From NCBI RefSeq assembly GCF_900112675.1, contig NZ_FOMQ01000002.1, positions 1-64,000 on the forward strand: DNA of 64,000 nucleotides, given 5' to 3'. Under the pieces are notes generated by a model that worked only from the letters and a program-made list of their open reading frames with translations, ran no database searches and was not told where the DNA came from. This DNA is from Paracidovorax konjaci. GTDB taxonomy: Bacteria; Pseudomonadota; Gammaproteobacteria; Burkholderiales; Burkholderiaceae_C. The position numbers and the translations under genes are program-made. Positions 1,576-58,443 of the stretch are shown here, piece after piece; the stretch's first letter is position 1; the number at the start of each line of letters is the position of its first letter.

Positions 1576-3195
1576 ATGTCCACCCTTCACGCTTTCGGCG
1601 GGCGCGCCTCCCGTGCGCCCGCGGCGCTCCTGTGGACGGGCGCGGTGCTGGCCGGGCTCGCCCAGGCGGCTTCCATCGCCTGGCCCTGGGGGGGCGAGCC
1701 GCTCTGGTGGCTGCAACTGGCATCGCTGGCCGCCTTCGCGCGCATCCTGCTCGCCGCGCGCGGGGCCTGGCAGGCGGCGGGGTTCGGCGCAGCCTTCGCC
1801 ACGGCCTGGCTGGCGGGCACGTTCTGGTGGCTGTTCATCTCGATGCACACCTACGGCGGGCTGGCCGCGCCGCTGGCCGTGCTGGCGGTGCTGGGCCTGG
1901 CGGCCTTCCTGGGCAGCTACTACGCGGCAGCCGCCGCGGCGTTTCAGCGTTTTCATGCCCATGCCGCCGGAAACAGGACCTTTCTAGCTATCATTTTCGG
2001 AGCGTTGTGGCTGCTGGCCGAGCTGGCGCGCGGCGTGTGGTGGACGGGTTTCCCCTGGGGCGCCGGAGGCTATGCCCACGTGGAAGGTCCGTTCGCCGTG
2101 CTGGCGCGCTGGGTGGGCGTGTACGGCATCGGTGCCGTCGCGGCCGGGCTGGCGATGCTGGCGGTGCAACTGCGCTGGGCAGACCTGCGCCGGCCGCGGT
2201 GCTGGGCGGCGGGTGCCGCGCTCGCGGTCGCCTGGACCGGGCTCGCGGCGCAGCGCCACTGCGCGGTGGAGCTGTGCCACACCCCGATGCGCGCGCCCGC
2301 GAAGCTGTCCGTGGCGCTGCTGCAGGGCAACATCCCGCAGGACGAGAAATTCCAGGCCGGCAGCGGCGTGCCGCTGGCGCTGCGCTGGTACGGCGACGCG
2401 CTGCGCAGCGTGCAGGCCACGCTGGTGGTGGCGCCGGAGACGGCCGTGCCGCTGCTGCCGCAGCAATTGATGCCGGGTTACCTCGAATCCATCGCGGCGC
2501 ATTACACCGGCAGCGCAGGCGAGGGCGGCGGCGCCCCGCCGCGCGCGGCGCTGCTGGGCATTCCGCTGGGCGATGCGGAGCAGGGCTACACCAATTCGGT
2601 CATCGGCTTCGCGCCGGGGCAGCCCGTGCGCTACCAGTACGACAAGCACCACCTCGTGCCGTTCGGCGAATTCATCCCGCCGCTCTTTCGCTGGTTCACC
2701 GAGCTGATGAACATCCCGCTGGGCGACTTCAACCGCGGCGCCGTGGGGCAAGCGCCGTTCGCATGGGCAGGCCAGCGCATCGCGCCCAACATCTGCTACG
2801 AGGATCTGTTCGGCGAGGAACTAGCGGCGCGCTTTCGCGACCCGGCCGCCGCGCCCACGGTGTTCGTGAACGTGAGCAACATCGCCTGGTTCGGCGATTC
2901 GGTGGCCATCGACCAGCATCTGTCGATCAGCCGCATGCGGGCGCTGGAGTTCGAGCGGCCGATGGTGCGCGCCACCAACACCGGCGCGACGGCGCTGATC
3001 GACCACCGCGGCGTGGTCACGCGGCGGCTTGCGTCCCTGGAGCGCGGCATCCTGCTGGGCGAGGTGGAAGGCCGCGATGGCGCGCCCACGCCCTTCGCAT
3101 GGTGGGCTGCCCGCGCGGGCCTCTGGCCGCTCTGGGCGCTGGGCGCGCTCGTGGTGGCGGGCGCCTTCCTGGCGGCCCGGCGCCGGCAGCGCTGA
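1576..3195 (+). CDS. lnt: Apolipoprotein N-acyltransferase
   Basis: A 539-residue inner-membrane enzyme that adds the third acyl chain to the N-terminal cysteine of lipoproteins. About six hydrophobic segments occupy the first 220 residues, followed by a periplasmic nitrilase-like domain with the expected catalytic residues: Glu in VVAPETAVP, Lys in YDKHHLVPFGEF and Cys in NICYEDLFG. A final membrane helix precedes the terminal RRRQR. It is slightly longer than E. coli Lnt (512). Residues 123-143 are encoded by a diverged copy of the dispersed repeat described elsewhere (1942-2004), giving FQRFHAHAAGNRTFLAIIFGA at the edge of a membrane helix. Translationally close to corC. Confidence 0.95.
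   Translation: MSTLHAFGGRASRAPAALLWTGAVLAGLAQAASIAWPWGGEPLWWLQLASLAAFARILLAARGAWQAAGFGAAFATAWLAGTFWWLFISMHTYGGLAAPLAVLAVLGLAAFLGSYYAAAAAAFQRFHAHAAGNRTFLAIIFGALWLLAELARGVWWTGFPWGAGGYAHVEGPFAVLARWVGVYGIGAVAAGLAMLAVQLRWADLRRPRCWAAGAALAVAWTGLAAQRHCAVELCHTPMRAPAKLSVALLQGNIPQDEKFQAGSGVPLALRWYGDALRSVQATLVVAPETAVPLLPQQLMPGYLESIAAHYTGSAGEGGGAPPRAALLGIPLGDAEQGYTNSVIGFAPGQPVRYQYDKHHLVPFGEFIPPLFRWFTELMNIPLGDFNRGAVGQAPFAWAGQRIAPNICYEDLFGEELAARFRDPAAAPTVFVNVSNIAWFGDSVAIDQHLSISRMRALEFERPMVRATNTGATALIDHRGVVTRRLASLERGILLGEVEGRDGAPTPFAWWAARAGLWPLWALGALVVAGAFLAARRRQR
1942..2004 (+). repeat. Dispersed repeat copy A, diverged, inside lnt
   Basis: About 63 bases starting TTTCAGCG and containing CATGCCGCCGGA, then CTAGCTATCATTTTCGGAGC. 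The copy shares the 12-base CATGCCGCCGGA core exactly with copy C (54297) and keeps the GCTATC...TTTCGGAGCG end of the family, but the middle has diverged. It is read in the same frame as copies B, C and D (His-Ala-Ala-Gly ... Ala-Ile-Ile-Phe-Gly-Ala). It is the least conserved of the five, so membership is likely but not certain. Confidence 0.6.
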
Positions 3196-3204
3196 CCGGG
3201 CGCG

Positions 3205-4140
3205 TCAGCCGGGCATCCCGCCCGTGTCGGCATGCTGCGGCCGTGCGAGCACGGCGTGCAGGAGCCCTGGCAGCAGGCCCAGCATGCGCGTTGCGTGCCG
3301 GTCGGGCGGGCGGTGTTCGGCGTGGTAGGCGTAGAGCGGGATGGGCGCCAGGTCGCGCAGCGGCACGGCCACCACGGCGGCCGGGTCCAGGTTGCCGGCC
3401 GTGAGGAAATCCACCACCGTCCAGCCCAGGCCCCGCCGCACCAGCTCGACGGCCAGCTGCGAGGTCTGGACCTGGATGCCCAGCTCGGTGTGCACCCCGA
3501 GGCTGCGGGCCAGCTCGGTCATCGGAGCGCGCATGGGGTCGTCCCCCAGCAGCTGGATCATGGGCGTGTTGGCCAGGAACGAGATCGGGTCGTTGCGGTT
3601 CACGCGCACGGCGCGCTGCCAGATGTCGCGGCCCACGGCGATCGAGAGCGGCCCGCTCACCAGCATGCCGCTGCCCACCTGCGGGTGCGGATGCGGGTAG
3701 AAGCCCAGCGCGAAATCCACCGTGCGCGTGAGCAGCGCCTGGGCCATCTGGTCGGGGTGCAGGGTCCGCACCTCCACCTTCACGCGCGGCGATTCGCGCG
3801 CATGCAGTTCCAGCACCGTGGGCAGGAAGGTGTGCGTGATGGACGGGATCGCACCGAGGCGCACCTGCCCGCCCTCGGGCTGGCGCAGGTTGAAGGCGGT
3901 GCGGCGCAGTTCGTCGAGCTGGCGGTGGATCTGGCCCGATGCCACGAACAGCGCCTGCGCTTCGGGGGTGGGCACCAGGGCCCCGCGCACCCGGCTGAAG
4001 AGCGGGTAGCCGAGCTGCAGTTCCGCATGGGCGATGGTCTTGCTGACGGCCGAGGGCGTGATGCTGACCAGGCGGGCGGCGGCGCTCATGTTGCCCGCCT
4101 GCATGACGGCCTGGAAGACTTCGAGTTGCCGGAGGTTCAT
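3205..4140 (-). CDS. LysR-family transcriptional regulator
   Basis: A 311-residue protein from ATG 4140. Its first residues MNLRQLEVFQAVMQAG are the canonical start of the LysR winged-helix domain, so the in-frame upstream ATGs at 4206 and 4182 are not used. The helix-turn-helix (MSAAARLVSITPSAVSKTIA) is at about residues 17-36, and the rest is a substrate-binding domain with HTFLPTVLELH typical of the effector fold. It is divergently transcribed from the periplasmic asparaginase, with a perfect inverted repeat containing a T-N11-A box between them. That arrangement suggests it controls the asparaginase and itself. The effector (possibly asparagine, aspartate or glutamate) cannot be told from sequence. 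Confidence 0.88.
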   Translation of the reverse strand: MNLRQLEVFQAVMQAGNMSAAARLVSITPSAVSKTIAHAELQLGYPLFSRVRGALVPTPEAQALFVASGQIHRQLDELRRTAFNLRQPEGGQVRLGAIPSITHTFLPTVLELHARESPRVKVEVRTLHPDQMAQALLTRTVDFALGFYPHPHPQVGSGMLVSGPLSIAVGRDIWQRAVRVNRNDPISFLANTPMIQLLGDDPMRAPMTELARSLGVHTELGIQVQTSQLAVELVRRGLGWTVVDFLTAGNLDPAAVVAVPLRDLAPIPLYAYHAEHRPPDRHATRMLGLLPGLLHAVLARPQHADTGGMPG

Positions 4141-4165
4141 GGCATGGAAAGGGGGGATCGGAAGG

Positions 4166-5371
<1,206 letters not shown>

Positions 5372-5446
5372 TCGGTGATGGCGCCCCGCGGGGCGGCGGC
5401 TTCGGGCCGCCGTGCCCGGGGCCCCAAGCCGCTTTCCACCCCCTCC

Positions 5447-5473
5447 AGGCCGCTCCATGCGGCCTTTCTTTTT
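5447..5473 (+). terminator. Rho-independent terminator after the asparaginase gene
   Basis: A 7-base perfect stem AGGCCGC / GCGGCCT with a TCCAT loop is followed by TTCTTTTT. It lies 75 bases past the asparaginase stop and upstream of fabA, and so separates the two transcription units. Confidence 0.8.
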
Positions 5474-5635
5474 GCATCGCATGAATCCGCCGCGAGGCTG
5501 CGGCGCGTGGTTTGTCGCATTGGCAAGGGGGGAGGACTCTCCGCAGACTGGATAATGCGTGTTTGCGACCGCCGGTCCACCGGCTCGCGCGCACACGAAA
5601 CGCGGCGCCCGCGCCCATCTGGAGCACGACTGACA

Positions 5636-6178
5636 ATGGCTGAATCCTTTTCCTATGAACAACTGATCGCCTCGGGTGAAGGCCGGCTGTTCACCCCTGA
5701 CAGCGGACGACTGCCGCTGCCGCCCATGCTGATGTTCGACCGCATCACGCACATCGACGCCGACGGCGGCGAACACGGGCTGGGAAAGATTCGCGCCGAA
5801 CTCGACGTTCGCCCCGACCTCTGGTTCTTCGACTGCCACTTCCAGGGCGACCCCGTCATGCCCGGCTGCCTGGGCCTGGATGCCATGTGGCAGCTCATCG
5901 GCTTCTACCTCACCTGGCTGAAACTGCCGGGCCGCGGCCGTGCCCTGGGCGCCGGCGAGGTCAAGTTCACGGGCGAGGTGGGCCCGGGCGTGAAGCTCGT
6001 CACCTATGAAATCGACATCAAGCGCGTCATCAAGCGCAAGCTCGTGATGGCCATCGGCGACGCCCGCCTGCTGGCCGACGGCCAGGAAATCTACGTGGCA
6101 TCGGACCTGCGCGTGGGCCTGTTCAAGCGCGACGAAGGCGGGAAGGACGGCGCACCCGCGGCGGGAGCACAGGCATGA
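5636..6178 (+). CDS. fabA: 3-hydroxyacyl-[acyl-carrier-protein] dehydratase/isomerase FabA
   Basis: A 180-residue enzyme from ATG 5636 ([16 protein letters not shown]), slightly longer than E. coli FabA (172). It carries the hot-dog core with the catalytic histidine in [18 protein letters not shown] and the downstream aspartate. FabA dehydrates 3-hydroxydecanoyl-ACP and isomerises it to the cis-3 form, the branch point of anaerobic unsaturated fatty acid synthesis. Its stop overlaps the fabB start by four bases (ATGA), the typical translationally coupled fabA-fabB operon. Nothing unusual apart from a short charged C-terminal tail. Confidence 0.96.
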
Positions 6179-7404
6179 CCACGAAGAAGCGCGTCGTCAT
6201 CACGGGTGCGGGCATCGTCTCGTGCATCGGCAATGACCAGCAGGCCGTGACCGCCTCGCTGCGCGAGGGCAAGTCCGGCATCCGCGCGATGCCCGAGTTC
6301 GCCGAACTCGGCCTGCGCAGCCAGGTGGCGGGCGCACCCCAGATCGACCTGGACGCGGTCATCGACCGCAAGCAGCGCCGGTTCATGGGCGATGCGGCGG
6401 CGTATGCCTACCTGTCGCTGAAGGACGCCATCGCGCAGTCGGGCCTGGCGCCCGAACAGGTCTCGAACCCGCGCACCGGGCTCATCATGGGCTCGGGCGG
6501 CGGCTCGCCGGCCAACCAGATCGAGGCGGCGGACACGCTGCGCTCCAAGGGCATCCGCCGCGTCGGGCCCTACCAGGTGACGCGCTGCATGGGCTCGACC
6601 GTGTCGGCCAACCTGTCCACCGCGTTCGCCATCAAGGGCATCAACTTCTCCATCACCTCGGCCTGCAGCACCTCCGCGCACTGCGTGGGCATGGCGGCGC
6701 AGCAGATCGCCTTCGGCCTGCAGGACGTGATGTTCGCGGGCGGCGGCGAAGAGCTGTCCTGGGGCCTGGCCACGCTGTTCGACGGCATGGGCGCCATGTC
6801 CAGCAAATTCAACGGCACGCCCGAGAAGGCCTCGCGCCCGTACGACGCCGAGCGCGACGGTTTCGTGATCGCCGGCGGCGGCGGCGCGCTGGTGCTCGAA
6901 AGCCTCGACCATGCGCAGGCCCGGGGCGCCACCATCCTGGCCGAGATCGTCGGTTTCGGCCTCTCGTCGGACGGCGAGGACATGGTCGCGCCGTCGGGCG
7001 ACGGGGCCATCGCCTGCATGCGCCAGGCCATCGCGGAAGCGGGCGGCGGCACGATCGACTATGTGAACACGCACGGCACCTCGACCCCCGTGGGCGACCT
7101 GCCCGAACTGCGCGCGCTGCGCGAGGTGTTCGGCGATGCCGTGCCCCCGTTCTCCAGCACCAAGTCGCTCACCGGGCATTCGCAGGGCGCGACCGGCGTG
7201 CAGGAAGCGATCTACTGCCTCTACATGCTCCAGGGCGGCTTCATCGCGGGCTCGGCCAACGTCGAGACGCCCGACCCCGCCGTGGGCGACCTGCCCCTGG
7301 TGACGGCCTCGCGCGAGGCGCCGCTGCGCACCGTGCTGTCCAACAGCTTCGGCTTTGGCGGCACCAACGCCAGCCTGGTGCTGCGGCGCTGGGATGGTCA
7401 GTAG
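6175..7404 (+). CDS. fabB: Beta-ketoacyl-ACP synthase I
   Basis: A 409-residue condensing enzyme. The Cys-His-His triad is visible: Cys in [12 protein letters not shown], His in [11 protein letters not shown] and His in [11 protein letters not shown]; the C-terminal [14 protein letters not shown] is conserved. With FabA it elongates unsaturated acyl chains. It is coupled to fabA by an ATGA overlap. Its 3' end overlaps the convergent cytochrome gene by seven bases. Confidence 0.96.
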
Positions 7405-13116: not shown

Positions 13117-13135
13117 CCCGGACGCAGCGCGCATA

Positions 13136-13201
13136 CGCTATGTTTTTAATAGCAGCATGTCCAGTGAATACGGCGGCATGCAGGCAAAAAGACCTCTGAA
13201 A
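13136..13201 (-). repeat. Dispersed repeat copy E, intergenic, reverse orientation
   Basis: Read on the minus strand, this region is TTTCAGAGG...TGCATGCCGCCG...GCTGCTATTAAAAA...TAGCG, matching the family start (TTTC), core (ATGCCGCCG) and end (GCTATT...TAGCG). It occupies most of the gmhB-plsC gap, ending 20 bases before the plsC ATG, and is the only copy outside a coding region and the only one on the minus strand. Confidence 0.75.
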
Positions 13202-13977: not shown

Positions 13978-14927
13978 TGCAGCGGCTGGTGCAGCTCGCG
14001 CTGGATTTCTTCGGCGGCGGGGCGGAACCCGCGGCCCCGGCGAAGCCGCCGCGGGTTTCTGTGCCAAAACGCACGGATGCCGCCGGATCCATTGAAAAGT
14101 TTGCTCCTGAAATAATAGCAAATCCGCACGCGCCGGCGCCTGCCGTGCCGCTGGACACGCTGCTTTCCCCGGCGCAGTTCCGCCACCCCCGCGCGAACCG
14201 CGAGGTGCTGCTGGGCGAGGCGCTGGTCGCCTACGCGCTGCAGCGCTCGCGGCGGCGCACCATCGGCTTCACCGTAGGGCCGGACGGGCTCGCGGTGCGC
14301 GCGCCCGGCTGGGTGTCGCTCGCGAACGTGGACGAGGCCGTGCGCGGCAAGGCCGACTGGATCCTGCGCAAGCTCGGCGAGGCGCAGGAGCGCCAGCGCC
14401 GCCAGGAAGATGCGCGCATCGCCTGGGGCGACGGCGCCGTGCTGCCCTACCTGGGCGAGCCGCTCACCGTGGTGCTCGACCCCACGCACGGTTTCCGGGG
14501 GCAGGGCGGGGCGCTGGTGCCCGGCCCGGACGGCGGGCGCTGCCTGCACGTCGGCCTGCCGCACGCGGCCACGCCGGCCCAGGTGCGCGACGCCGTGCAG
14601 GCCTGGCTCATGCGCGATGCACGCCGCCACTTCATCGCCCGCCTCGACCACTACGCGCCCCTGCTGGGCGTGCAGTGGCGCACGCTGCGGCTGTCCAGCG
14701 CCCACACGCGCTGGGGCAGCGCGCGCGCCGATGGATCGATCCGCCTCAACTGGAGGCTGCTGCACTACCGGCCGTCCATCATCGATTACGTGGTCGCGCA
14801 CGAACTCTCCCACCTGCGCCACATGGACCACAGCCCGCGCTTCTGGGACACCGTCGCCACCGTGGTGCCCGACTACGCCGCGCTGCGCGACCGCCTGCGC
14901 GACGAGCCGGCGCCGCGCTGGGAGTGA
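13977..14927 (+). CDS. YgjP/DUF45-type metallopeptidase-fold protein
   Basis: A 316-residue protein from ATG 13977, overlapping the plsC stop by one base. The C-terminal half is the YgjP-like domain with the zinc motif VAHELSHLRHMDHSPRFW, preceded by RTLRLSSAHTRWGSARADGSIRLNW. E. coli YgjP has been described as a nucleotide pyrophosphatase despite the protease-like fold, so the biochemical role here is uncertain. The N-terminal 55 residues are not part of the fold: residues 27-48 (VPKRTDAAGSIEKFAPEII...) are encoded by a dispersed repeat copy at 14056-14120. Operon with plsC. Confidence 0.85.
   Translation: MQRLVQLALDFFGGGAEPAAPAKPPRVSVPKRTDAAGSIEKFAPEIIANPHAPAPAVPLDTLLSPAQFRHPRANREVLLGEALVAYALQRSRRRTIGFTVGPDGLAVRAPGWVSLANVDEAVRGKADWILRKLGEAQERQRRQEDARIAWGDGAVLPYLGEPLTVVLDPTHGFRGQGGALVPGPDGGRCLHVGLPHAATPAQVRDAVQAWLMRDARRHFIARLDHYAPLLGVQWRTLRLSSAHTRWGSARADGSIRLNWRLLHYRPSIIDYVVAHELSHLRHMDHSPRFWDTVATVVPDYAALRDRLRDEPAPRWE
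14056..14120 (+). repeat. Dispersed repeat copy B, in frame in the YgjP-like gene
   Basis: 65 bases starting TTTCTGTGCC, then AAAACGCACGGATG, the core GCCGCCGGATCCATTGAAAA, GTTTGCTCCTG and AATAATAGCA. It is identical to copy C over a 24-base stretch beginning ATGCCGCCGGATCC and shares AAAACGCACGGATG with copy D. Translated as Lys-Arg-Thr-Asp-Ala-Ala-Gly-Ser-Ile-Glu-Lys-Phe-Ala-Pro-Glu-Ile-Ile-Ala. Confidence 0.88.
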
Positions 14928-30205: not shown

Positions 30206-30661
30206 ATGGCGCATTCCCGTGCTGGCCGCTCCTGTGGCATTTCCATGCAACGCAAATCCGCTCGCGGCTTCACCCTCATCGAACTGTTGGTCGTGCTGGC
30301 CATTCTCACGCTGCTGGCGGGCCTGGTTGGCCCACGCGTGTTGAATCAGCTGGGCGGTGCCAAATCCAAGACAGCGGGCGTCCAGATCGCGGATCTCGAC
30401 AAGGCCCTTGAGTTGTTCAAGCTGGACGTCGGTCGTTACCCCAGCACTGAAGAAGGCCTGGATGCTCTCGTCAAACGTCCAGGTTCTGCGAATGGTTGGG
30501 CCGGCCCCTATCTCAAGGGTGGCGTCCCCTCGGATCCCTGGGGCCATCCGTACCGCTATGCCAATCCAGGTCCGAACGGTGGCATCGAAATCCTCTCCCT
30601 GGGCTCCGATGGTGCGCCTGGCGGTGAGGGTGAAGCGGGCGATATCCGCAACACGCCCTGA
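30206..30661 (+). CDS. gspG: Major pseudopilin GspG
   Basis: A 151-residue prepilin. Start at ATG 30206 after AAGGAG; ATG 30245 (MQRKSARG) is an alternative that would give the short leader normal for pseudopilins. The prepilin-peptidase site is ARG|FTLIELLVVLAILTLLAG, and the globular part has the GspG calcium-loop region and PYLKGGVPSDPWGHPYRY with ILSLGSDGAPGGEGEAGDI near the end. It forms the pseudopilus shaft. The long 20-residue leader preceding the RKSARG site is atypical if the first ATG is used. Confidence 0.95.
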   Translation: MAHSRAGRSCGISMQRKSARGFTLIELLVVLAILTLLAGLVGPRVLNQLGGAKSKTAGVQIADLDKALELFKLDVGRYPSTEEGLDALVKRPGSANGWAGPYLKGGVPSDPWGHPYRYANPGPNGGIEILSLGSDGAPGGEGEAGDIRNTP

Positions 30662-30687
30662 TCCCTCCGCTTTTCTGCAGTTCTGCC

Positions 30688-31134
30688 ATGCGGCGCGAGC
30701 GCGGCTTCACGCTGGTTGAATTGTTGGTGGTCTTTGCCATCATGGCGCTCGTGGTGGGGCTGGCTCCAATAGCGTTCGAACGGTTGCGTGAAGCGGCGTC
30801 GTACCGCGATACCGTCCGCACGATGACCAGCCAGATGCGTTCAGCCCGGCTGAGGGCGATGGCTGAAGGACGAGAAGTGCGTTTCTCGGTGGACCTCAGA
30901 AATCGTGCTTATGGCATAGATACGGCGATGAAGCCGCTGCCCCAGCCGTTGCAACTGCGCGCGATAGTGGCGGGCTCGGAATTGAGTTCGCCAAGCCAGG
31001 CGGCCATCCGTTTTTTACCCAGCGGAGGCGCCACCGGCGGAAGCATAGAAATCTTGCGTGCCCCTGGCGTAGGGACGCGGTTGCGGGTGGACTGGCTCTC
31101 CGGTCGTGTAACGCAAGAGGCTCTGACGCGATGA
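30688..31134 (+). CDS. gspH: Minor pseudopilin GspH
   Basis: A 148-residue protein with a very short leader and cleavage site RRERG|FTLVELLVVFAIMALVVG, then a beta-rich domain (EVRFSVDLRNRAYGID). GspH is a minor pseudopilin placed near the tip of the pseudopilus. The low similarity of the C-terminus between species makes GspH versus another minor pseudopilin depend on gene order; the order G-H-I-J-K fits. It overlaps gspI by four bases. Confidence 0.9.
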   Translation: MRRERGFTLVELLVVFAIMALVVGLAPIAFERLREAASYRDTVRTMTSQMRSARLRAMAEGREVRFSVDLRNRAYGIDTAMKPLPQPLQLRAIVAGSELSSPSQAAIRFLPSGGATGGSIEILRAPGVGTRLRVDWLSGRVTQEALTR

Positions 31135-31538
31135 GGCGGGGTAAGGGCCGTGCACAGCGGGGGTTGACCCTGCTGGAGTTGCTCGTGGCATTCGCCATCA
31201 TGGCCTTGTCGTTGGGCATGTTGTATCGCGCCATGGGTGGCAGTGCCCGCAGCGTGGCCGACGTGGACCGTTACCAGCGGGCCGTGGTCTTGGCGCAGTC
31301 GCTGCTCGCGCTGCGCGATGCTGTGCCGGAGCAGGGCTGGAATCAGACGGGGGATTCTGCTGGATACCAATGGCGCATCGCCAGCACACCCTATGCCACC
31401 GAATTCAACGGGCCGAACATTCCGCCGTTGCACGAGGTAAGCATCACGATTTCTTGGTCGGATGGCACGCGGCTGCGCAGCTTTGAACTCAGCACCTTGC
31501 GTCCTCAGCGTCGCTTGCCTGAGCCGGGGCGTTCCTGA
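31131..31538 (+). CDS. gspI: Minor pseudopilin GspI
   Basis: A 135-residue prepilin with leader MRRGKGRAQRG and the hydrophobic helix LTLLELLVAFAIMALSLGM. Note leucine instead of phenylalanine at +1 of the mature chain. With GspJ and GspK it forms the tip complex that primes the pseudopilus. It starts within the gspH stop codon overlap and ends overlapping gspJ by one base. Confidence 0.92.
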   Translation: MRRGKGRAQRGLTLLELLVAFAIMALSLGMLYRAMGGSARSVADVDRYQRAVVLAQSLLALRDAVPEQGWNQTGDSAGYQWRIASTPYATEFNGPNIPPLHEVSITISWSDGTRLRSFELSTLRPQRRLPEPGRS

Positions 31539-32212
31539 TGGCATTTCCCATGATTCGGAAAAACGACCACGCTGGCGGCTTTACCCTGGTGGAGTTGTTG
31601 GTCGTTATCTCACTGCTTTCTTTGGTCATGCTGGCCATGGGCTCGGCTTTGAGAACCACTGCGCAGACGGAGGAGCGCGTCGATGCGCGGCTTCGAAAAA
31701 TTGACGATTTGCGCGTAGTGGATAGTTTCCTGCGGTCGGTACTGGGCCGGGTATCCCTGCGGAAAAGACCACCGCCGGTAGCGATAGACGAGAGCCCTTA
31801 TTTCTTTTTTGGAAGACCCCAGGAAATGGTCTGGGTGGGAATCATGCCGGCCCGGTACGGGGCAGGGGGGCGCTATTTTTTCCGGTTGGGGCTGGAGGAT
31901 GGAAGTTCTGGGAAAGCACTGGTACTCAGATATCTTCCCTTCGTGGATGGTGGTGGCGGTCCTGACTGGGGACAGGCAGAAAGCTATGTGCTCGTACCAG
32001 CTGTGACCGGATTCGAACTTCGCTATGAAGATCCGTCGCAGGAGCCGCCCCAGTGGGGCGCTCCTTGGACGCCGACCGATCGATTGCCCCAACGCGTAGC
32101 GCTGCAGATAAGAAGCACTACCGATGTGTGGCCGGACATCATCGTGGCGATGCGAACCCTGCCGAACAGCGATCCTTCCATCGGCGGTGCGACTTTTGGG
32201 GGTAACCGATGA
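31538..32212 (+). CDS. gspJ: Minor pseudopilin GspJ
   Basis: A 224-residue minor pseudopilin; leader MAFPMIRKNDHAGG and cleavage before FTLVELLVVISLLSLVM. The globular domain has the expected beta-strands (ESYVLVPAVTGFELRYED) and PQRVALQIRSTT. The protein ends GGATFGGNR, a motif also found at the ends of the GspL and GspC-like proteins of this operon. It overlaps gspI and gspK by 1 and 4 bases. Confidence 0.92.
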   Translation: MAFPMIRKNDHAGGFTLVELLVVISLLSLVMLAMGSALRTTAQTEERVDARLRKIDDLRVVDSFLRSVLGRVSLRKRPPPVAIDESPYFFFGRPQEMVWVGIMPARYGAGGRYFFRLGLEDGSSGKALVLRYLPFVDGGGGPDWGQAESYVLVPAVTGFELRYEDPSQEPPQWGAPWTPTDRLPQRVALQIRSTTDVWPDIIVAMRTLPNSDPSIGGATFGGNR

Positions 32213-45666: not shown

Positions 45667-48600
45667 TCAGGCCTGCAGCCAGTTTTTCACGCGCCTTTGC
45701 CAATGCGGGGGAATGCTTCGCGCCACTCCACGCAGAACGGGCAGTGAGCGAAGGTAGACGACCGCCGACAGCAATCCCGATTTCGCTGCGGCCACAGGCG
45801 TTTCCTGGGGCAGGAAGCGTTGCAGCTCATCCGGAGAACAGGGTTGGGATTGCGTGATTGCAACCATGCCTGCGAGGTAGTCACTTGCGTATTGGAAGGA
45901 AGCAGGCGACACATACCGAGGTGGTTCGGAAGGCTGCGATTCGGACAGCGCGGGAGCTTCTCCGGTAACGAAATTCCGCTCACGCACATCGTCGAACCAC
46001 GCAAGCCACTGTGCCGCCGAAGCGTCCCAGGCATGCACCCAGCTCCAAGGACGTCCGGTCAGCCGTTCGCGGAATGCGCCGATGTCAGGCACGGCGACCG
46101 GCAAGCCCGCCAGCAACGCGGCGCTCAGCGTATAGCTGTAGGTTTCCGGCCATTGGGCGGGGAACCATACCAAATCAGGCTCGAGCCATTCCAGCAACCG
46201 CTGGAGGTCTTTCTCGGCGTATTCGCCATGCACCGTGAGCCGCGCCCGCGGCTGCGTTTGCAGGCTTCGATACCCATAGCCGATCAAGTGGAAATCCACC
46301 AGTGCGTCGCGTCGTGCCGCTTCCGCCGCAACGGCCTCGAGCAGATCCGCTCCCTTGATGGCGCTGAGTGCGCCGATAACGACCACTTTCAGCCGCTGGC
46401 CACCGTGAAGTGGGCGAGGTGAGGGCGCAGGAAGTGCCAGCCGGTCCGGCAGGTCGGTATGGGGCACCGCATACACCTTGGCGGTGGGAGCGAAGGCCGC
46501 GATGCGTTGCGCTGTGTCGTGGCTTGGTGCCAGCACATGGCGGGCGCCACTCAGAAGGAGCGCATTGGCATGCCGCCATTGCGCCACCGACCCGCCCAGC
46601 GGTGCCTGCATGTCGGGGGGGCAGCAGAGGCACTGCCCCGGTCCCGCTTCGCCGACGTAGCGGTGGGCGGTACCGGTCATGGAGATGTGCGTGCAGTAGC
46701 TGTAATAGTCGTGTGCCGTGAAGTCGTAGGCCACGTCCAGCAGGTGAGGGAGGTTGCGTACCTCCTGGCCGTGCCCCAGCAGGTGGTGGAAGTGCACATG
46801 GCACACGCCGAGGCGCTGGAGCATGTGGATCAGATCGTCCTGCTGGTCGTGCAGGCGGAAGGTCAGTTCGAACCCCTCCTCCTCGCGCGCCATGCGCAGC
46901 CGCACGCTGTGCCCCGGTGCGGGCGTGAGCGTCAGGAAATGGGCCTTGTCCGCCAGGTGGGCCGCCAGTTCCCGGACATGCCGTACGGTGCCACCCGCGC
47001 GATCGTGCAGGATGTTCAGCACCACCGGCCGACCGCCTTCTGCGATGCGTGCCGCATCCAGGGCCAGGCGGTGGGGCTTTGCGGGGTCCCGCTGCACGAA
47101 GGCGTGCACATCGCGGTCATAGCTGGGGTGCAGCCGGCGCAGTGTTTCCATGGCTGCGAGCTCACGCGGGCTCTTGCTGTCGCCGAAGCTCACGCCTCCG
47201 GTGTGCAGCACGAAGGTATCCAGCAGATGCAGATTGCGCCAGCCCGCCGCCTGCGCGCGCTGGCAGAAATCGTTCTCTTCGCCGTAGCCCTTGCCGAAGT
47301 GTTCCGTGTCGAACAAGCCCACCTGCTCCAGGCAATCGCGGCGGATGTACATGCAGAAACCCACGCCCGTTGGAACGTCGACCACCGCGCCGGGGTTGGT
47401 GCGCGCGCACAGCGCATCCAGCCGGGCGGTGTCGTAGCCTGGAGGCAGACCATTGTCCTTGCAGAAGAGCGGATAGCTGCAGATCGTGGCGTTGTTGGAG
47501 AAGGGCGTCACCGACGCTACCTTCGCGTCGCCATAGGCGGCTTGCCGGATGCGGTCGAGCCAGTCGTTGGCGACTTCCGTGTCGCTGTTGAGCAGCAGCA
47601 CATCGTTGCTGTCGCTGAGGGCCATCCCGCGGTTCACCGTGCCGACGAAGCCCAGGTTCTCGGCGTTCTCCAGCAGCAGGATGCGCTGGTCTCCCGCAGC
47701 GCGTTCGCGCAACCAGGCGGTCACTGCGGGTTCAGGGCTCGCGTCGTTGATGACGATGAGGCGATAAGGGGTGCGACAGGCACTCGCGAGCACCGATTCC
47801 ACGCAAAGCTGCGTGTCGGCCAGCCCTCGGTACACGGGCACGATGACGTCGACCAGGTGTGCCGCCGGGGTGACAGGAACCGGCACATGCTGAGCAGCCG
47901 CCTGGACCGGGCCCGGGGCGCGGCCCAGCAGCCGGTCGATTCGCATCTTGGCGTGGACGATGGGGCGTGTCGCTCGGAACACTGTGGAGCTTTCGATGGT
48001 TCTCAGGTGGTGGGCCAGGGCGCCGAAGTCGCGTTGCATGCAACCCAGCGCATGGTGGAGCCGGGTGAGGTCGCGCTGGTACTGGGACGCGCGGGACTGC
48101 AGAGCGGACCGCTGCTCCAGCAGGGTGGCGTACTCCTGCTGCAATGCCAGATGATTCGATTCCAGCAGGCGTTTCTGCTCTTCCACCGCGTTCTTCTGCT
48201 CTTCCACTGCACGTTTCTGGTCTTCCACCGCGCGTTTCTGGCCTTCGACAGCACTTTTCTCCTGGGTCAATGCCTGCCGGATCGCATCCATCTCTGCATT
48301 CAGGCGCACTTGCGTCGCATGGTTTTCGTCCTGGAGGGCGGCAATGCGTTCCTGAAGCGGCAGCACGGTGCCGGAGAGCGCGACGTAGTCGGCCGACATG
48401 GGCCAGCCCAGGTCCACCTCCAGGCTCGCGCCTTCGCCAGCACTGCCAAAGGCATCGACCGGAATGGGCAACTGCATCCAGGGGTCTTCACCGGTCAGCA
48501 GCAACAGGCTTGCCGCGGAAGCCGCCGGCATGGCCTGGAGGTCCCAGGCGATCTGCTGGTGCGGCATGCTTGCGAGCAGCGGCCGGGCATCGGGCGTGGC

Positions 48601-51563: not shown

Positions 51564-51690
51564 GCCCCGGGCCTGGCACCCGCCCGACCCGCGCGGGTGG
51601 CCGCGCCCGACGCCGCCGCGGGTGGAGCGGGCACAATGCGGTTTTTCCAACCCCCGTGCAGCCCCTGTTTTTCACGTCGAGCGTTCCTCC

Positions 51691-52581: not shown

Positions 52582-52657
52582 TAGGCATGGCTTCCACGGT
52601 GGCTGCCGGCGGACCGGGACCGACCCGCCGGCTCCACGGATAGGGCCGGCGAACGCG

Positions 52658-53377
52658 ATGCGCCTCCTGCTGGTCGAAGACGACGTGATGCTGGCCAGCG
52701 GGATCAAGCTGGGCCTGACCGATGCCGGCTATGCCGTCGACTGGGTGGGCAGCGGCGAGCGCGCCGAGGAAGTGCTGCGCGGCGAAACCTTCGACGCCGC
52801 GATCATCGACATCGGCCTGCCCGGCATGGATGGCCTGGAACTCACCCGCTGCCTGCGCCGCCCGGACATGGCCAACCCGTCGATGCCGGTGCTGATCCTC
52901 ACTGCGCGCGATGCCTTGCACGACCGCGTGCAGGGCCTGGACCTGGGCGCCGACGACTACATGGTCAAGCCCTATGAACTGCCCGAGCTGCTGGCCCGGC
53001 TGCGGGCGTTGCTGCGCCGCTCGCAGGCGGCCACCACCGCGGTGCTGAGCTTCGGGCCGCTGGAGCTGGACACCGCCGGCCGGAGCGTGAGCGTGCGTGG
53101 CCCCGCGGCGGAGGGCGGGCTGGCCGTGCGGCAGACGATCGAGCTGGGCCCGCGCGAATGGACGGTGCTGGAGTACCTGATGATCCATGCCCCGAAGCCG
53201 GCCAGCAAGGAGAAGCTGGTGCAGGCGCTGACCGGCTGGGACAAGGAGATCACGCCGAACGCCGTGGAGGTGTACGTGTCGCGGCTGCGCGGCAAGCTCG
53301 AGCCCAGCGGCGTGGCGCTGCGCTCCATCCGGGGCTTCGGCTACCGGCTGGAGCTGCGCCTGCCGGGGGCCGCCTGA
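52658..53377 (+). CDS. OmpR-family response regulator
   Basis: A 239-residue regulator. The receiver domain starts MRLLLVEDDVMLASGIKLGL with phosphoacceptor Asp51 in AAIIDIGLPGMDG, switch Thr in LILTARDA and Lys in YMVKPYELPEL. The DNA-binding winged helix is at the C-terminus (LGPREWTVLEYLMIHAPKPA, VEVYVSRLRGKLEPSGVALR). Between the two is a longer loop (RSVSVRGPAAEGGLAVRQ). The type is QseB/TctD-like. The cognate kinase gene begins 92 bases downstream. Confidence 0.94.
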   Translation: MRLLLVEDDVMLASGIKLGLTDAGYAVDWVGSGERAEEVLRGETFDAAIIDIGLPGMDGLELTRCLRRPDMANPSMPVLILTARDALHDRVQGLDLGADDYMVKPYELPELLARLRALLRRSQAATTAVLSFGPLELDTAGRSVSVRGPAAEGGLAVRQTIELGPREWTVLEYLMIHAPKPASKEKLVQALTGWDKEITPNAVEVYVSRLRGKLEPSGVALRSIRGFGYRLELRLPGAA

Positions 53378-53469
53378 GCGCTCTGCACGGCAACGGGCAC
53401 GCGGGCATTCCGGCAGCCGCTGCCCTACTTTTTTCTCTGCCTGCCCTTTTTCCAGCCCATTCCCCCACC

Positions 53470-54921
53470 ATGACGTCCGCCCTGCGCAATCGCCTGCTGC
53501 TGCTGCTGGTGCTGCCGCTGTGCGTGCTGGCCCTCGTGGGGGCGTGGCTGGACTACCGGTCTGCGGACGAGGCGGCCAGCCGCCACGACCAGCGGCTGAT
53601 GCGCCTGTTGCCCGCGCTGGCCGATTCGGTCGTGGCGCCCCCGCTGCGCGACGGCGGGGCGCCGGTGCTGCTGCTGGCCCCGCCGGTGGAAGAGTTCCTG
53701 CGCCAGAACGCCGGCTACGCGGGCTACAGCGTGCAGGACCTGTCGGGCCGCATCCTGCTGGGCGACCACTGGGTCTACAGCGCGGTGCCGCCCACGCACG
53801 ATCCGGAATTCCACAGCGCCGAGTACGACAGCGTCACGTACCGCATCGCGGTGCAGCGCACCCGGACGGGGGCCGGCGAGCTGGTGGTGGCGCTGGCCGA
53901 TGGCTCCGATCCGCGGCAGCAGTGGGGCAAGCAGATGCTGCTGCGCGTGCTGCTGCCCAACCTCGTGCTGGTGGCGGCGGCGGGTCTGGCCATCCACTGG
54001 GCGGTGCGGCGGGCCTTCAAGCCGCTGGTGGACTTGGCCGAGGCGGTGGAGCGGCGCTCTCCGCGCGACCTGAGCCCGATTTCCGAGGCAGCGTCCCCAG
54101 CCGAAGTGCGGCCCCTCGTGAATTCGCTCAACCGGCTGTTCGCCCTGGTGAACGCGCAGACCGAGGGCCAGCGACGCTTCGTGGCCGATGCCGCCCACCA
54201 GCTGCGCACCCCGTTGGCCGGGCTGCAGGCGCAGGTGGAGGCCTGGGCCCTTTCTGCGCGGGCGGCGGGCAGGGTGCGGGAGGGGGCAGTGCAGGGTTTG
54301 GAGTCAAAAGGCATCCATGCCGCCGGATCCATTGAAAAGTCTGCTATTGTTTTGGGAGCAGAGGAGATCGAAAAGCTCCGGCATGCAGCGCGCCGCACCT
54401 CCAAGCTGGCTCACCAGTTGCTGGCCCTCTCGCGTGCCGATGCGGGCGGGCTGGACGGCCAGCCGATGCAGCGCGTGGACCTCAAGGCCCTGTGTGAAAG
54501 CATCCTGGAGGCGTTCCTCGATGCCGCCACCGCCAAGGGCCTGGACCTTGGCCTGGAGGTCGCCCCCGCCCAGGCGAGCGGCCATGGCTGGCTGCTGCGG
54601 GAGCTGCTCTCCAACCTGGTGGACAACGCCATCAAGTACACGCCCGAGGGCGGGAGCGTGACCCTGCGCTGCGGCCTGGGTGCCGGTGGCGCCGCCTTCC
54701 TGCAGGTCGAGGACGATGGGCCCGGGATCGCCGAATCCGAGCGCGGCCGGGTGCTGCAGCGCTTCTACCGTGTGCCCGGGGCGGCCGGCGAGGGCACGGG
54801 CCTGGGGCTGGCGATCGCCGACGAGATCGCCCGGGTGCATGGCGGTGCGCTGCAACTCGGCGCCGGGGCGCAGGGGCGCGGGCTGCTCGCCACCGTGTCG
54901 ATTCCCACGGGGTCGGCCTAG
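53470..54921 (+). CDS. Sensor histidine kinase (QseC/TctE-like) with repeat-encoded insert
   Basis: A 483-residue membrane kinase from ATG 53470. Two membrane helices (LLLLLVLPLCVLALVGAWL; LLPNLVLVAAAGLAIHWAV) flank a periplasmic sensor of about 130 residues. A HAMP region precedes the DHp domain with phosphoacceptor His243 (VADAAHQLRTPLAGLQAQVE), and the ATPase domain has the N box LLSNLVDNAIKYTPEGG and the G boxes VEDDGPGIAES and GTGLGLAIADEI. Residues 276-297 (GLESKGIHAAGSIEKSAIVLGA, quoted in parts) are encoded by a dispersed repeat copy and fall in the DHp hairpin loop, making the helix-to-helix spacing about 27 residues longer than in QseC. Signal unknown. Confidence 0.92.
   Translation: MTSALRNRLLLLLVLPLCVLALVGAWLDYRSADEAASRHDQRLMRLLPALADSVVAPPLRDGGAPVLLLAPPVEEFLRQNAGYAGYSVQDLSGRILLGDHWVYSAVPPTHDPEFHSAEYDSVTYRIAVQRTRTGAGELVVALADGSDPRQQWGKQMLLRVLLPNLVLVAAAGLAIHWAVRRAFKPLVDLAEAVERRSPRDLSPISEAASPAEVRPLVNSLNRLFALVNAQTEGQRRFVADAAHQLRTPLAGLQAQVEAWALSARAAGRVREGAVQGLESKGIHAAGSIEKSAIVLGAEEIEKLRHAARRTSKLAHQLLALSRADAGGLDGQPMQRVDLKALCESILEAFLDAATAKGLDLGLEVAPAQASGHGWLLRELLSNLVDNAIKYTPEGGSVTLRCGLGAGGAAFLQVEDDGPGIAESERGRVLQRFYRVPGAAGEGTGLGLAIADEIARVHGGALQLGAGAQGRGLLATVSIPTGSA
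54297..54360 (+). repeat. Dispersed repeat copy C, in frame in the sensor kinase
   Basis: 64 bases: TTTGGAGTCAAAAGGCATCC, then the core ATGCCGCCGGATCCATTGAA, AAGTCTGCTATTGTTTTGGG and AGCA. It shares a 24-base identical stretch with copy B and the segment GCTATTGTTTTGG with copy D. Read as Lys-Gly-Ile-His-Ala-Ala-Gly-Ser-Ile-Glu-Lys-Ser-Ala-Ile-Val-Leu-Gly-Ala in the kinase. Confidence 0.9.
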
Positions 54922-54985
54922 CGGGTGCTGCAAAAAGAGGCAGCAGGACCCTGTGCGAGAATCAATTGCACACAGCTGTTGCTCC

Positions 54986-55672
54986 ATGCAAGACACCGTT
55001 CCATCCCCTTCCGACGACAGCGCCGTGGCCGAGGCCGCGACGGCCTCCGGGCCCGCGCCGGCGCCCCGCCGCAGGCCCAAGCCCGGCGAGCGGCGGGTGC
55101 AGATCCTGCAGGCGCTCGCCGCCATGCTGGAGCAGCCCGGCTCGGACCGCATCACCACCGCCGCGCTGGCGGCCCGGCTGGAGGTCAGCGAAGCCGCCCT
55201 GTACCGGCACTTCGCCAGCAAGGCGCAGATGTTCGAGGGACTGATCGATTTCATCGAGCAGTCGGTGTTCTCGCTGATCGGCCAGATCATGGAGCGCGAA
55301 GGCCCGGCAGCGGAAGATGCCGTCCCTGCGGACGGCGCGCGCCGCGCGGCCCGGGTGGTCGCCATGGTGCTGCAGTTCGGCGAGCGCAACCCGGGCATGG
55401 TGCGCGTGATGGTCGGCGACGCGCTGGTTTTCGAGCACGAGCGCCTGCAACAGCGCATGAACCAGTTCTTCGACCGGATCGAATCCACGCTGCGCCAGTG
55501 CCTGCGCCCGGCCGCCGAGGCCGCGGGCTCTGCCACGCCGACGGCCGATGCCCATCTGCGCGCCGCCGCGCTCTGCGACCTCGTGCGCGGCCGGCTCCAG
55601 CGCTACGCGCGCACCGGCTTGCGCCGCGTGCCCACCGAACACCTCGACGCCACGCTCGCGCTGCTGCTGTAG
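54986..55672 (+). CDS. slmA: Nucleoid occlusion factor SlmA (TetR fold)
   Basis: A 228-residue TetR-fold protein from ATG 54986 (MQDTVPSPSDDSAVAEAA). The helix-turn-helix is ITTAALAARLEVSEAALYRH followed by FASKAQMFEGLIDFIEQSVF, both very close to SlmA. SlmA binds DNA sites over the chromosome and blocks FtsZ ring assembly over unsegregated DNA. The N-terminal 35 residues are Ala/Pro-rich and longer than in E. coli (198 residues total). It is near argB, as in related genomes; 64 bases separate it from the kinase. Confidence 0.9.
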   Translation: MQDTVPSPSDDSAVAEAATASGPAPAPRRRPKPGERRVQILQALAAMLEQPGSDRITTAALAARLEVSEAALYRHFASKAQMFEGLIDFIEQSVFSLIGQIMEREGPAAEDAVPADGARRAARVVAMVLQFGERNPGMVRVMVGDALVFEHERLQQRMNQFFDRIESTLRQCLRPAAEAAGSATPTADAHLRAAALCDLVRGRLQRYARTGLRRVPTEHLDATLALLL

Positions 55673-55783
55673 CGCCTCCCTGCAGGCGCGCAGGCGGGTG
55701 CGTGGGCATGTCTCGGTGTTTACCCTGAAACCCGGCCAGCCGCCCGCCCGGGGCTGGCGTGCGGGATTCCTTTTGCTGCAAAA

Positions 55784-55813
55784 TAGCACGATCGTTCGTT
55801 TTATTTCGTGCTA
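55784..55813. promoter_or_regulatory. Inverted repeat, candidate operator for the downstream TetR gene
   Basis: TAGCACG and CGTGCTA form a perfect 7-base inverted repeat with a 16-base spacer that itself holds ATCGTTCGTT, an element like those bound by fatty-acid TetR regulators. It overlaps the first possible GTG start (55808) of the TetR gene, which argues that translation starts at GTG 55817 or that the protein represses its own gene from this site. Confidence 0.6.
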
Positions 55814-56479
55814 CCTGTGTCGTCCACCATCTCCATCAAAACCCCGCGAGCGGCCACCACGCGGGAAGGCCGTGCGCTCCAGAAGGGCCAGCAGACCAAG
55901 GCGGCCATCGTCGATGCCGCGCTGGGGCTGGCCACGCACATCGGGCTGGAGGGGCTGTCCATCGGCGCGCTGGCCGACGTGACCGGCATGAGCAAGTCGG
56001 GCGTCTTCGCGCACTTCGGCTCGCGCGAGGAGCTGCAGATCTCCGTGGTGCGCGAATACCACATGCGCTTCGAGCAGGAAGTGTTCTATCCCGCCATGTC
56101 GGCGTCGCGCGGCCTGCCGCGCCTGCGCGCGCTCTTCGACAACTGGATGAAGCGCACGTCCATCGAAATCGATTCGGGTTGCATCTACATCAGCGGCGCG
56201 GTGGAGTTCGACGACCGCACGGGCCCCGTGCGCGACGCACTCGCCAATTCCGTGCTGACCTGGCATGCCGCCATGCGCCGCGCCATCGACCAGTGCAAGG
56301 AGCTGGACGAAGTGCGCGCCGACGTGGATTCCGACCAGATGCTCTTCGAGATCCACGGCCTCATCCTCGCGCTCCACTACGAGGCGCGCTTCCTGCAGAC
56401 GCCCGGCTCCATCGACCGCGCCAACGCCGGCTTCGACAACATCCTCGCCCGCTGCGCCGTCCGGCCCGCGGGCGGCTGA
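55808..56479 (+). CDS. TetR-family regulator of the beta-oxidation cluster
   Basis: A 223-residue regulator if GTG 55808 is used; GTG 55817 gives 220. Helix-turn-helix: GLEGLSIGALADVTGMSKSG, then VFAHFGSREELQISVV. The C-terminal ligand domain (YHMRFEQEVFYPAMSASRGL; WHAAMRRAIDQCKELDEV) resembles TetR_C family regulators beside fatty acid degradation genes. It lies 73 bases upstream of the acyl-CoA dehydrogenase on the same strand. An inverted repeat overlaps its start. The likely inducer is an acyl-CoA; this is inference from context. Confidence 0.85.
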   Translation: MLPVSSTISIKTPRAATTREGRALQKGQQTKAAIVDAALGLATHIGLEGLSIGALADVTGMSKSGVFAHFGSREELQISVVREYHMRFEQEVFYPAMSASRGLPRLRALFDNWMKRTSIEIDSGCIYISGAVEFDDRTGPVRDALANSVLTWHAAMRRAIDQCKELDEVRADVDSDQMLFEIHGLILALHYEARFLQTPGSIDRANAGFDNILARCAVRPAGG

Positions 56480-56552
56480 GTTCCTGTTTTCGCGTTTTCC
56501 CCAGACATCCGCTTCCACCCATCCAAAAGCACCGTTCCAAGGAGTCCCCCAC

Positions 56553-58358
56553 ATGCCGATCTACACGCCCCCCCTGCGCGACATGCAATTCGTCCTCCAC
56601 GAGGTCTTCCAGGTCACGGAGGAGTTCAAGGCGATCCCCCGGCATGCGGAGGTCGATGCCGACACGGTCAATGCCGTGCTGGAAGAGGCCGGCAAGTTCG
56701 CTGCGGGCGTGGCGTTTCCGCTGAACATCAGCGGCGACGAGGAAGGCTGCCACCTCGACAAGGCGACGCATGAAGTCACCACGCCCAAAGGCTTCAAGGA
56801 GGCCTACGGGCAGTACGTGGAGGGCGGCTGGGCGGCGCTGTCGTGCGAGCCCGAGTACGGCGGACAGGGCCTGCCGTTCGTGCTCAACCAATGCCTCTAC
56901 GAAATGCTCAACAGCGCCAACCAGGCCTGGACGATGTACCCCGGCCTGTCGCATGGCGCGTACGAAGCCCTGCATGCGCACGGCACGCCCGAGCAGAAGA
57001 AGCTCTACCTGCCCAAGCTGACCAGCGGCGAGTGGACCGGCACGATGTGCCTGACCGAGCCCCACTGCGGCACCGACCTGGGACTGCTGCGCACCAAGGC
57101 CGAGCCCGTGGCGGGCGCGCCCGAAGGCACCTACAAGATCACCGGCAACAAGATCTTCATCAGCGCGGGCGAGCACGACTTCACCGAGAACATCGTGCAC
57201 CTGGTGCTGGCCCGCCTGCCCGATGCGCCCAAGGGCAGCAAGGGCATCAGCCTGTTCGTCGTGCCCAAGTTCAACGTGAACGCCGATGGCTCGCTGGGCG
57301 AGCGCAATCCGATCTTCTGCGCGGGCCTGGAGCACAAGATGGGCATCCACGGCAACGCGACGGCGCAGATCGCCATCGACGGTGCCATCGGCACGCTGGT
57401 GGGCCAGCCGCACAAGGGCCTCGCCGCGATGTTCGTGATGATGAACGCCGCGCGCCTGGGCGTGGGCAACCAGTCGCTGGGCCTGACGGAAGTGGCCTTC
57501 CAGAACGCGCTGGCCTACGCGAAGGACCGCACGCAGATGCGCAGCCTCTCGGGCACCAAGGCCAAGGACAAGGACGCCGACCCGATCATCGTGCATCCCG
57601 ACGTGCGCAAGATGCTGCTCACGGCCAAGGCCTATGCCGAGGGGGCGCGCGCGCTGCAGATCTACTGCACGCTGCTGCTGGACAAGGCGCACAGCCATCC
57701 CGACGAGAAGGTGCGCAAGGACAGCGACGAACTCGTCGCGCTGCTCACGCCCATCGTCAAGGCCTTCATCACCGACAACGGCCACATCGCCACCAACGCG
57801 TGCATGCAGGTCTTCGGCGGCCATGGCTTCATCAAGGAATGGGGCATGGAGCAGTTCGTGCGGGACAACCGCATCAACATGATCTACGAAGGCACCAACA
57901 CCATCCAGTCGCTGGACCTGCTGGGCCGCAAGATCCTGGGCAACAACGGTGCGACGCTCAAGAAGTTCGGCAAGCTGGTGGGCAAGCTGGTCGAAGAGGA
58001 GGGCGTGAACGAGAAGATGGCCGAATTCATCAACCCCATCGCCTACCTGGGCGACCAGATGACCAAGTTCACCACCGAGATCGGCTTCAAGGGATTCCAG
58101 AACCCCGACGAAGTCGGCGCTGCCGCCGTGGATTACCTGCGCGTGGCGGGCCACCTCGTGTTCGGCTACATGTTCGCGCGCATGGCGCAGGTGGCGCTGC
58201 GCAAGATCGCCGCCGGCGACACCGATCCGTTCTACCAGGCCAAGCTGCAGACGGCACGCTTCTATTTCGCCAAGCTGTTCCCCGAGACGGCCACCCTGAT
58301 GCGCACGGCGCGCGCCGGCTCCAAGCCGCTCATGGACACCGACGCGGCCCTGGCCTGA
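56553..58358 (+). CDS. Acyl-CoA dehydrogenase (long form, DmdC/FadE-type)
   Basis: A 601-residue flavoprotein from ATG 56553 after AAGGAG. N-terminal acyl-CoA dehydrogenase domain, FAD/substrate loop TMCLTEPHCGTDLGLLRTKA, C-terminal catalytic Glu in NMIYEGTNTIQSLDLLGRK, and an extra C-terminal helical domain of about 120 residues typical of the long subfamily. It catalyses the first, trans-2-forming step of beta-oxidation and passes electrons to ETF. First structural gene of the cluster after the TetR gene. Confidence 0.94.
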   Translation: MPIYTPPLRDMQFVLHEVFQVTEEFKAIPRHAEVDADTVNAVLEEAGKFAAGVAFPLNISGDEEGCHLDKATHEVTTPKGFKEAYGQYVEGGWAALSCEPEYGGQGLPFVLNQCLYEMLNSANQAWTMYPGLSHGAYEALHAHGTPEQKKLYLPKLTSGEWTGTMCLTEPHCGTDLGLLRTKAEPVAGAPEGTYKITGNKIFISAGEHDFTENIVHLVLARLPDAPKGSKGISLFVVPKFNVNADGSLGERNPIFCAGLEHKMGIHGNATAQIAIDGAIGTLVGQPHKGLAAMFVMMNAARLGVGNQSLGLTEVAFQNALAYAKDRTQMRSLSGTKAKDKDADPIIVHPDVRKMLLTAKAYAEGARALQIYCTLLLDKAHSHPDEKVRKDSDELVALLTPIVKAFITDNGHIATNACMQVFGGHGFIKEWGMEQFVRDNRINMIYEGTNTIQSLDLLGRKILGNNGATLKKFGKLVGKLVEEEGVNEKMAEFINPIAYLGDQMTKFTTEIGFKGFQNPDEVGAAAVDYLRVAGHLVFGYMFARMAQVALRKIAAGDTDPFYQAKLQTARFYFAKLFPETATLMRTARAGSKPLMDTDAALA

Positions 58359-58380
58359 CGCCGGAAGCCTCCCGCCCTTG

Positions 58381-58443
58381 TTTGAACAAAAACGCACGGA
58401 TGTCGCCATGAAATCTACATTGTTTGCTATTGTTTTGGTAGCG
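58381..58443 (+). repeat. Dispersed repeat copy D, supplies start and signal peptide of next gene
   Basis: 63 bases: TTTGAACA, AAAACGCACGGATG, TCGCCATGAAATCTACAT and TGTTTGCTATTGTTTTGGTA, then GCG. It shares AAAACGCACGGATG with copy B and GCTATTGTTTTGG with copy C. The DUF2147 gene's ATG (58408) and most of its signal peptide (MKSTLFAIVLVA) lie within it, in the same frame as the other coding copies. Confidence 0.85.

Follow-up and report, generated by a model that had tools for sequence, protein, structure and literature searches.

The window, i.e. the whole stretch of 64,000 nucleotides analyzed here from Paracidovorax konjaci (contig NZ_FOMQ01000002.1, positions 1 to 64,000), carries five sites of one dispersed repeat, four of which a profile built from genome copies identifies clearly and one (site A) marginally. 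Site A (1942..2004, forward strand) lies within lnt (open reading frame 1576-3195), whose product contains LNT_N and CN_hydrolase domains according to Pfam; its core begins at 1961 and its right arm at 1987, and the copy is degenerate (profile match at 1946, E = 0.003; this and the following E-values refer to a search of the window only). Site B (13131..13196, reverse strand; E = 5e-13) is located between the genes of a HAD-type hydrolase and an acyltransferase, which run in the same direction (Pfam). Site C (14057..14125, forward strand; core starting at 14077 and right arm at 14103; E = 4e-16) contributes in-frame codons to the N-terminal region of a YgjP-like protein, the Pfam YgjP-like domain beginning downstream of the element. 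Site D (54297..54361, forward strand; core starting at 54317 and right arm at 54343; E = 8e-18) is read in frame in a sensor kinase gene, where it separates the HisKA match from the HATPase_c domain (Pfam). Site E (58381..58447, forward strand; E = 5e-5) covers the start of a gene encoding a DUF2147 protein (Pfam), with the ATG at 58408, and encodes its first residues, MKSTLFAIVLVAS. As proposed in a preliminary description of this DNA, four copies are associated with genes in one codon phase (sites A, C and D inside genes; site E, as found here, at a gene start), and the hosts (Lnt, a YgjP-like protein, a sensor kinase and a DUF2147 protein) are supported by Pfam. Elsewhere in the window, a tandem array of 21-bp units, with five registered copies of a 42-nt family, occupies 48149-48274, and four segments resembling one another recur about every 440 bp at 30261-31620, whose translations presumably represent type IV pilin or pseudopilin N-termini.

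A scan of the complete P. konjaci genome (5.08 Mb, 36 contigs) yields copies far above chance expectation. A 32-nt core with up to three mismatches matches 184 times, with no match to the reversed pattern; two mutually exclusive core patterns account for 29 and 179 copies, again with reversed controls of 0; and a looser core pattern (up to three mismatches) matches 241 times. The best profile match on reversed DNA has E = 3. Sequences were sampled as 100 stretches around copies plus the window, giving 135 copies at E 1e-3 and 126 at 1e-10. The conserved span runs from about -20 to +46 around ATGCCGCCGGATCCATTGAATAGTTTGCTATT in the aligned copies; the profile extends over about 66 bp, compared with the 60-65 bp first given for the element. 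The element is built of three parts. On the left is an arm containing a short A or T run (AAAA in 23/105 and TTTT in 22/105 intergenic copies), followed by a core of some 26 nt and by the right arm, GCTAT-N8-TAGCA, the only part of the consensus that forms an inverted repeat. At positions +38 to +41, ATAG occurs in 73/105 copies and GTAG in 23/105; these positions lie within the right stem, and there is no invariant end tag. A left-arm hairpin shows no covariation among 105 copies, while Rfam at gathering scores returns no match in the window and only two tRNAs in nine loci. The consensus is without match at E 0.01 in either the plasmid or the phage collection, and an origin from plasmids or phages was rejected on these grounds; the P. 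konjaci core is likewise without match in a wider genome-contig collection, from which the P. konjaci genome itself is perhaps excluded. Even spacing was also considered and discarded (71 gaps, coefficient of variation 0.78, from an incomplete hand-made copy list). Three element copies occur inside about 2 kb at L042:821-2877.

Copies within genes comprise 19 of the 126 aligned copies, a proportion in which in-gene copies are over-represented because the sampled stretches include all 29 copies of the first core pattern and only part of the second. These copies were defined by an open-frame and codon test, passed by 21 copies, from which L065 and L070 were dropped as shadow frames. Their hosts, mostly unrelated, are by Pfam a GntR-aminotransferase, a sensor kinase, PGI, a Kdo transferase, YgjP, an M20 peptidase (which we take to be DapE), an Lhr-type helicase, CobU, TilS, MutL, an ABC ATPase, a lipoyl-dihydrolipoamide dehydrogenase, HemD, a NUDIX protein, EarP (two copies), a competence protein, DUF5682 and an RHS-repeat protein. 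The two copies in the EarP gene (L054:1685-3319) differ in frame and orientation. Fifteen in-gene copies follow the element orientation and four are reversed; 13 of the 15 are read as xAT GCC GCC GGA TCC ATT GAA (frame 2) and two in another frame, a bias (binomial 3e-5) that is partly affected by the selection of copies for an open frame. The consensus TAG is absent in 13/13 frame-2 copies and in 20/113 of the others (Fisher 2e-9, computed with 19/113), a comparison that is circular since an open frame was the selection criterion. In the 13 frame-2 hosts, GC3 is 0.43 in element codons versus 0.93 elsewhere, and the element is enriched in GGA among Gly codons (11/16 versus 10/483), ATT among Ile codons (19/31 versus 7/176) and AAA among Lys codons (18/27 versus 4/102). 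Element codons are unlike host codons, so it is the DNA sequence, and not the peptide, that is conserved. The earlier proposal that the residues shared by these proteins derive from a dispersed DNA repeat rather than from protein ancestry is borne out; the repeat is read in frame in unrelated genes and occurs far above chance. Annotators should note that in DapE, Pgi, MutL, TilS, HemD and other proteins here, a stretch of roughly 22 residues is dictated by a DNA repeat.

The window and its neighborhood were compared with the genomes G403 (the sister of P. konjaci), G399, G190 and G404. Matches to both flanks were obtained in G190 or G404 for 20 of the 29 hits queried (P. konjaci and G403 sequence); these 20 correspond to 12 distinct sites, the nine unmatched hits being uninformative. 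Together with site A, the relative carries the element with another core at 13/13 distinct testable sites and none is empty; L083 and site C in G190 were judged by eye, site C otherwise resting on G404, and in L042 two copies map to one G404 element that is only partly visible. Within the window, the profile gives site A only a weak score; its membership is settled by the orthologues in G399, G404 and G190, each of which carries its species' own version, 9 nt shorter in G404 and G190 and still filled. Site B is filled in G403, G399, G190 and G404, site C in G403, G399, G404 and, as judged by eye, G190, and site D, with other cores, in G399, G190 and G404; at site E, as read by eye, the start codon and first residues are made of the local version in P. 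konjaci, G190 and G404. At the protein level, the segment spans 22 residues, with other residues, in 10/15 congeners for DapE, 10/10 for Pgi and 5/5 for the GntR-type protein; in four further hosts, with two to three congeners each, it spans 22 residues in 5/11 comparisons and 6 to 31 in the remainder. In the DNA of the DapE, Pgi and GntR-type genes, repeat-bearing species share the outer arms and differ in the core, and the same segments are GC-rich in species without the repeat; clearly shorter segments occur in repeat-lacking genomes, namely DapE (five), WaaA in G407 and the helicase in G265. An insert of about 20-27 residues confined to repeat carriers, as the preliminary description anticipated, was looked for in the orthologues and is not found, the orthologues being filled at 13/13 sites. 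The sites are old and filled, and the lineage-specific part is the core.

Among 17 genomes of the genus, the core with up to three mismatches matches 241 times in P. konjaci, 249 in G403, nine in G399 and never in the other 14, while the strict core pattern is confined to P. konjaci among 399 family genomes (0 in the 398 others). The right arm, counted on both strands so that a palindromic copy may count twice, has 81-398 matches in 11 genomes of the genus, P. konjaci included (controls 1-7), and 9-20 in the remaining six (controls 0-11), which is background only. Across the 399 family genomes, according to a hand-transcribed list, it matches in 234 and reaches at least 20 matches in 110. The core of the G190 type is present in at least 80 records, and the matches listed include Acidovorax, Paracidovorax, Diaphorobacter, Simplicispira, Giesbergeria, Ottowia, Ramlibacter, Rhodoferax, Rubrivivax, Alicycliphilus and Comamonas. 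In a DapE tree of 16 species, P. konjaci and G403 are grouped (100/96; others 97/95), the six repeat-lacking genomes fall together (68/79; five of them 95/93) beside P. konjaci, G403 and G399, and the other repeat-bearing species are placed elsewhere. A single loss of the repeat would fit this midpoint-rooted tree if the root lay among repeat-bearing species.

The cores form species-specific dialects. The consensus is AGCGCTT-N7-AAGCGCAAGCA in G190 (17 copies), AGCGCAATNANNACTAGGGC in G404 (24 copies), ATGTCGCCGT in G399 (30 copies) and ATGCCGCCGGATCCATTGAATAGTTT in P. konjaci (74 copies), the last being the same in G403 (8 copies). Mean identity over the 26-nt core is 0.81 within P. konjaci and decreases to 0.77 with G403, 0.54 with G399, 0.30 with G404 and 0.23 with G190; core uniformity is strong in P. 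konjaci and moderate in G190, G404 and G399, each with a within-genome identity of 0.50-0.53. Single orthologous cores compared with G190 or G404, with core boundaries corrected for most false-hairpin cuts, have identities of 0.19-0.46 (11 comparisons) and, for site C against G404, 0.69; most of them resemble each other hardly more than randomly chosen copies from the two species do. In several G404 copies (L259-L261, L292-L311) the core is inverted between the same outer arms, so that two orientations coexist in one genome, and the P. konjaci core looks closest to the inverted orientation. Between P. konjaci and G403, 204/217 core positions and 1643/1801 flanking positions are conserved at seven sites, a weak difference (L117, where the alignment spanned the element only, is left out of this sum), and the two genomes share the variants peculiar to individual copies in Pgi, WaaA and the helicase gene.

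The interpretation that we tentatively favor, while giving it somewhat less than even odds, takes the P. konjaci repeat to be a lineage-specific version of a dispersed element, about 65 bp long, that occurs across the family and the copies of which serve as recognition sites of a putative trans-acting factor with dialects resembling those of uptake sequences. Each copy would be a recognition site for a putative sequence-specific DNA-binding activity, and the A/T runs would help the DNA bend. Selection or a biased-recombination drive would keep the sites and shift them jointly when the preference of the factor changes, as in the dialects of DNA uptake sequences (DUS) in Neisseriaceae, and the sites would decay where the putative factor is lost. 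This model is supported by the filled orthologous sites with other cores (13/13, plus DapE, Pgi and the GntR-type gene), by the gradient of core identity from P. konjaci through G403, G399 and G404 to G190, by the low GC3 of the in-gene copies relative to their hosts, by the six genomes with background counts as opposed to the eleven that bear the repeat, together with related cores in the other genera named above, and by the precedent of DUS dialects (PMC3630211). Evidence against it includes the low density (about 208 strict copies in 5.08 Mb) of an element much longer than DUS, the divergence of most orthologous cores at 54-81% of their positions, which is much for site-by-site change, the weaker core uniformity in G190, G404 and G399, and a core that is barely more conserved than its flanks between P. 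konjaci and G403.

The main rival, which we consider rather unlikely, is a selfish repeat homogenized by templated replacement, in which old sites receive the sequence of a new core, with the outer arms as matching ends, through ectopic gene conversion or through annealing of single-stranded copies at replication forks. Such copying would account for the many positions that differ at once in orthologous sites, the outer arms common to different dialects and the inverted cores between the same arms in several G404 copies. The shared arms are, however, short and variable, the copy-specific variants that P. konjaci and G403 have in common in Pgi, WaaA and the helicase gene indicate that replacement is not fast, and the intermediate position of G399 also fits gradual change.

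A lower probability, well within the unlikely range, is assigned to a REP/REPIN-like family moved by a RAYT (Y1_Tnp) transposase, the present sites being very old, vertically kept insertions. The P. konjaci genome contains a single gene of this type (L072:2759-3466, equivalent to G000:C14:101488-102192), upstream of a gltB-like gene, with one element copy a few hundred bases upstream of it, and the copies are mostly intergenic; with gene orientation assigned by a model trained on Pfam-verified host parts, the neighbors of the 73 scored of 105 intergenic copies are convergent in 32 cases, co-directional in 40 and divergent in one. RAYT as the driver, a candidate raised by the one adjacent copy, is nevertheless unsupported: RAYT genes are present in 374/399 family genomes, including G265 and G386, in which repeat counts are at background only, and three elements lie within 1.5 kb of 30 RAYT genes versus 2.06 expected, i.e. 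without enrichment. Repeats without a RAYT match occur in G040 and G163, whose assemblies are 70-74% complete.

A function at the RNA level, such as 3'-end formation or termination via the right-arm hairpin, would agree with the preference for convergent and same-direction gaps and with the conserved inverted right arm, yet it appears highly improbable given that copies are kept inside genes, that the right stem is broken in sites C and D, that cores differ between species, and that the Rfam and left-arm covariation searches described above were negative. Recent in-frame insertion in P. konjaci, in the manner of Rickettsia palindromic elements as first suggested for this DNA, is the least probable explanation, for although the in-frame copies in unrelated genes and the narrow range of the core (strict form in one of 399 family genomes; with up to three mismatches only in P. 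konjaci, G403 and, nine times, G399 among 17) would suit it, it is contradicted by the DapE, Pgi and GntR-type segments of the same length and by the 13 tested sites, none of them empty in repeat-bearing relatives, the clearly shorter segments being those seen in repeat-lacking genomes and site A remaining filled in G404 and G190 despite its 9-nt difference.

Neither insertion nor RNA function nor neutral drift readily accounts for positions that persist while the sequences at them are replaced in concert. If a factor exists, it should emerge from comparing the 11 repeat-bearing with the six repeat-lacking genomes of the genus. A bolder formulation, possible although we regard it as doubtful, is that hundreds of fixed genus-wide slots have their content of about 26 bp rewritten in place, lineage by lineage and even in housekeeping genes, by a putative targeting or templated-replacement system distinct from both RAYT transposition and ordinary uptake-sequence drift.

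Several known systems share features with the element. Rickettsia palindromic elements are DNA repeats that occur in frame in unrelated proteins, are absent from repeat-less orthologues and are palindromic as a whole. The element described here resembles them in its in-frame occurrence in unrelated genes (19/126 aligned copies), whereas it is shorter, palindromic in the right arm only, and filled with another version at orthologous sites in relatives. DNA uptake sequences, which promote the uptake of DNA through a receptor, are characterized by a very high density of a short motif, unlike the 208 strict copies of about 65 bp in 5.08 Mb found here; the element is much longer, has far fewer copies, and its cores differ almost throughout. 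The DUS dialects of Neisseriaceae are congruent with the core-genome tree and include intragenic and intergenic sites (PMC3630211), and the present element is similar in its dispersed sites within and between genes and in species dialects that follow the tree, as judged from core identities and the DapE tree.

A 2017 survey reports two unnamed motif pairs, GCTTAT(N)5AAGCG in Acidovorax ebreus TPSY and ATAGCT(N)22CAAAAG in Polaromonas naphthalenivorans CJ2, with 114 and 125 copies, mostly intergenic and some in genes (PMC5217627). By eye, these pairs are like the inner hairpin of the G190-type core, AGCGCTT-N7-AAGCGC, and the span from the left tract to AGCTAT in the right arm, respectively, and the neighbor orientation found here resembles that of the A. 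ebreus motif (44 convergent, 4 divergent, 59 co-oriented). The relevant section of the survey presents them as potential novel motifs, without joining them into one family and without dialects, conserved positions or a reading-frame analysis. These motif pairs are the only earlier sighting found, in literature mainly outside subscription journals, and a description elsewhere is possible. Finally, REP, BIME and REPIN sequences with RAYT (PMC3733652, PMC2817692) are comparable as abundant short repeats, mostly intergenic, with one RAYT in the genome. In REP sequences the palindrome carries a GTAG or CGTC tag at one of its ends (PMC3733652), whereas ATAG (73/105) or GTAG (23/105) here lies inside the right stem; the element further differs from REP and REPIN sequences in lacking an association with RAYT, in having copies within genes, and in occupying positions common to species.
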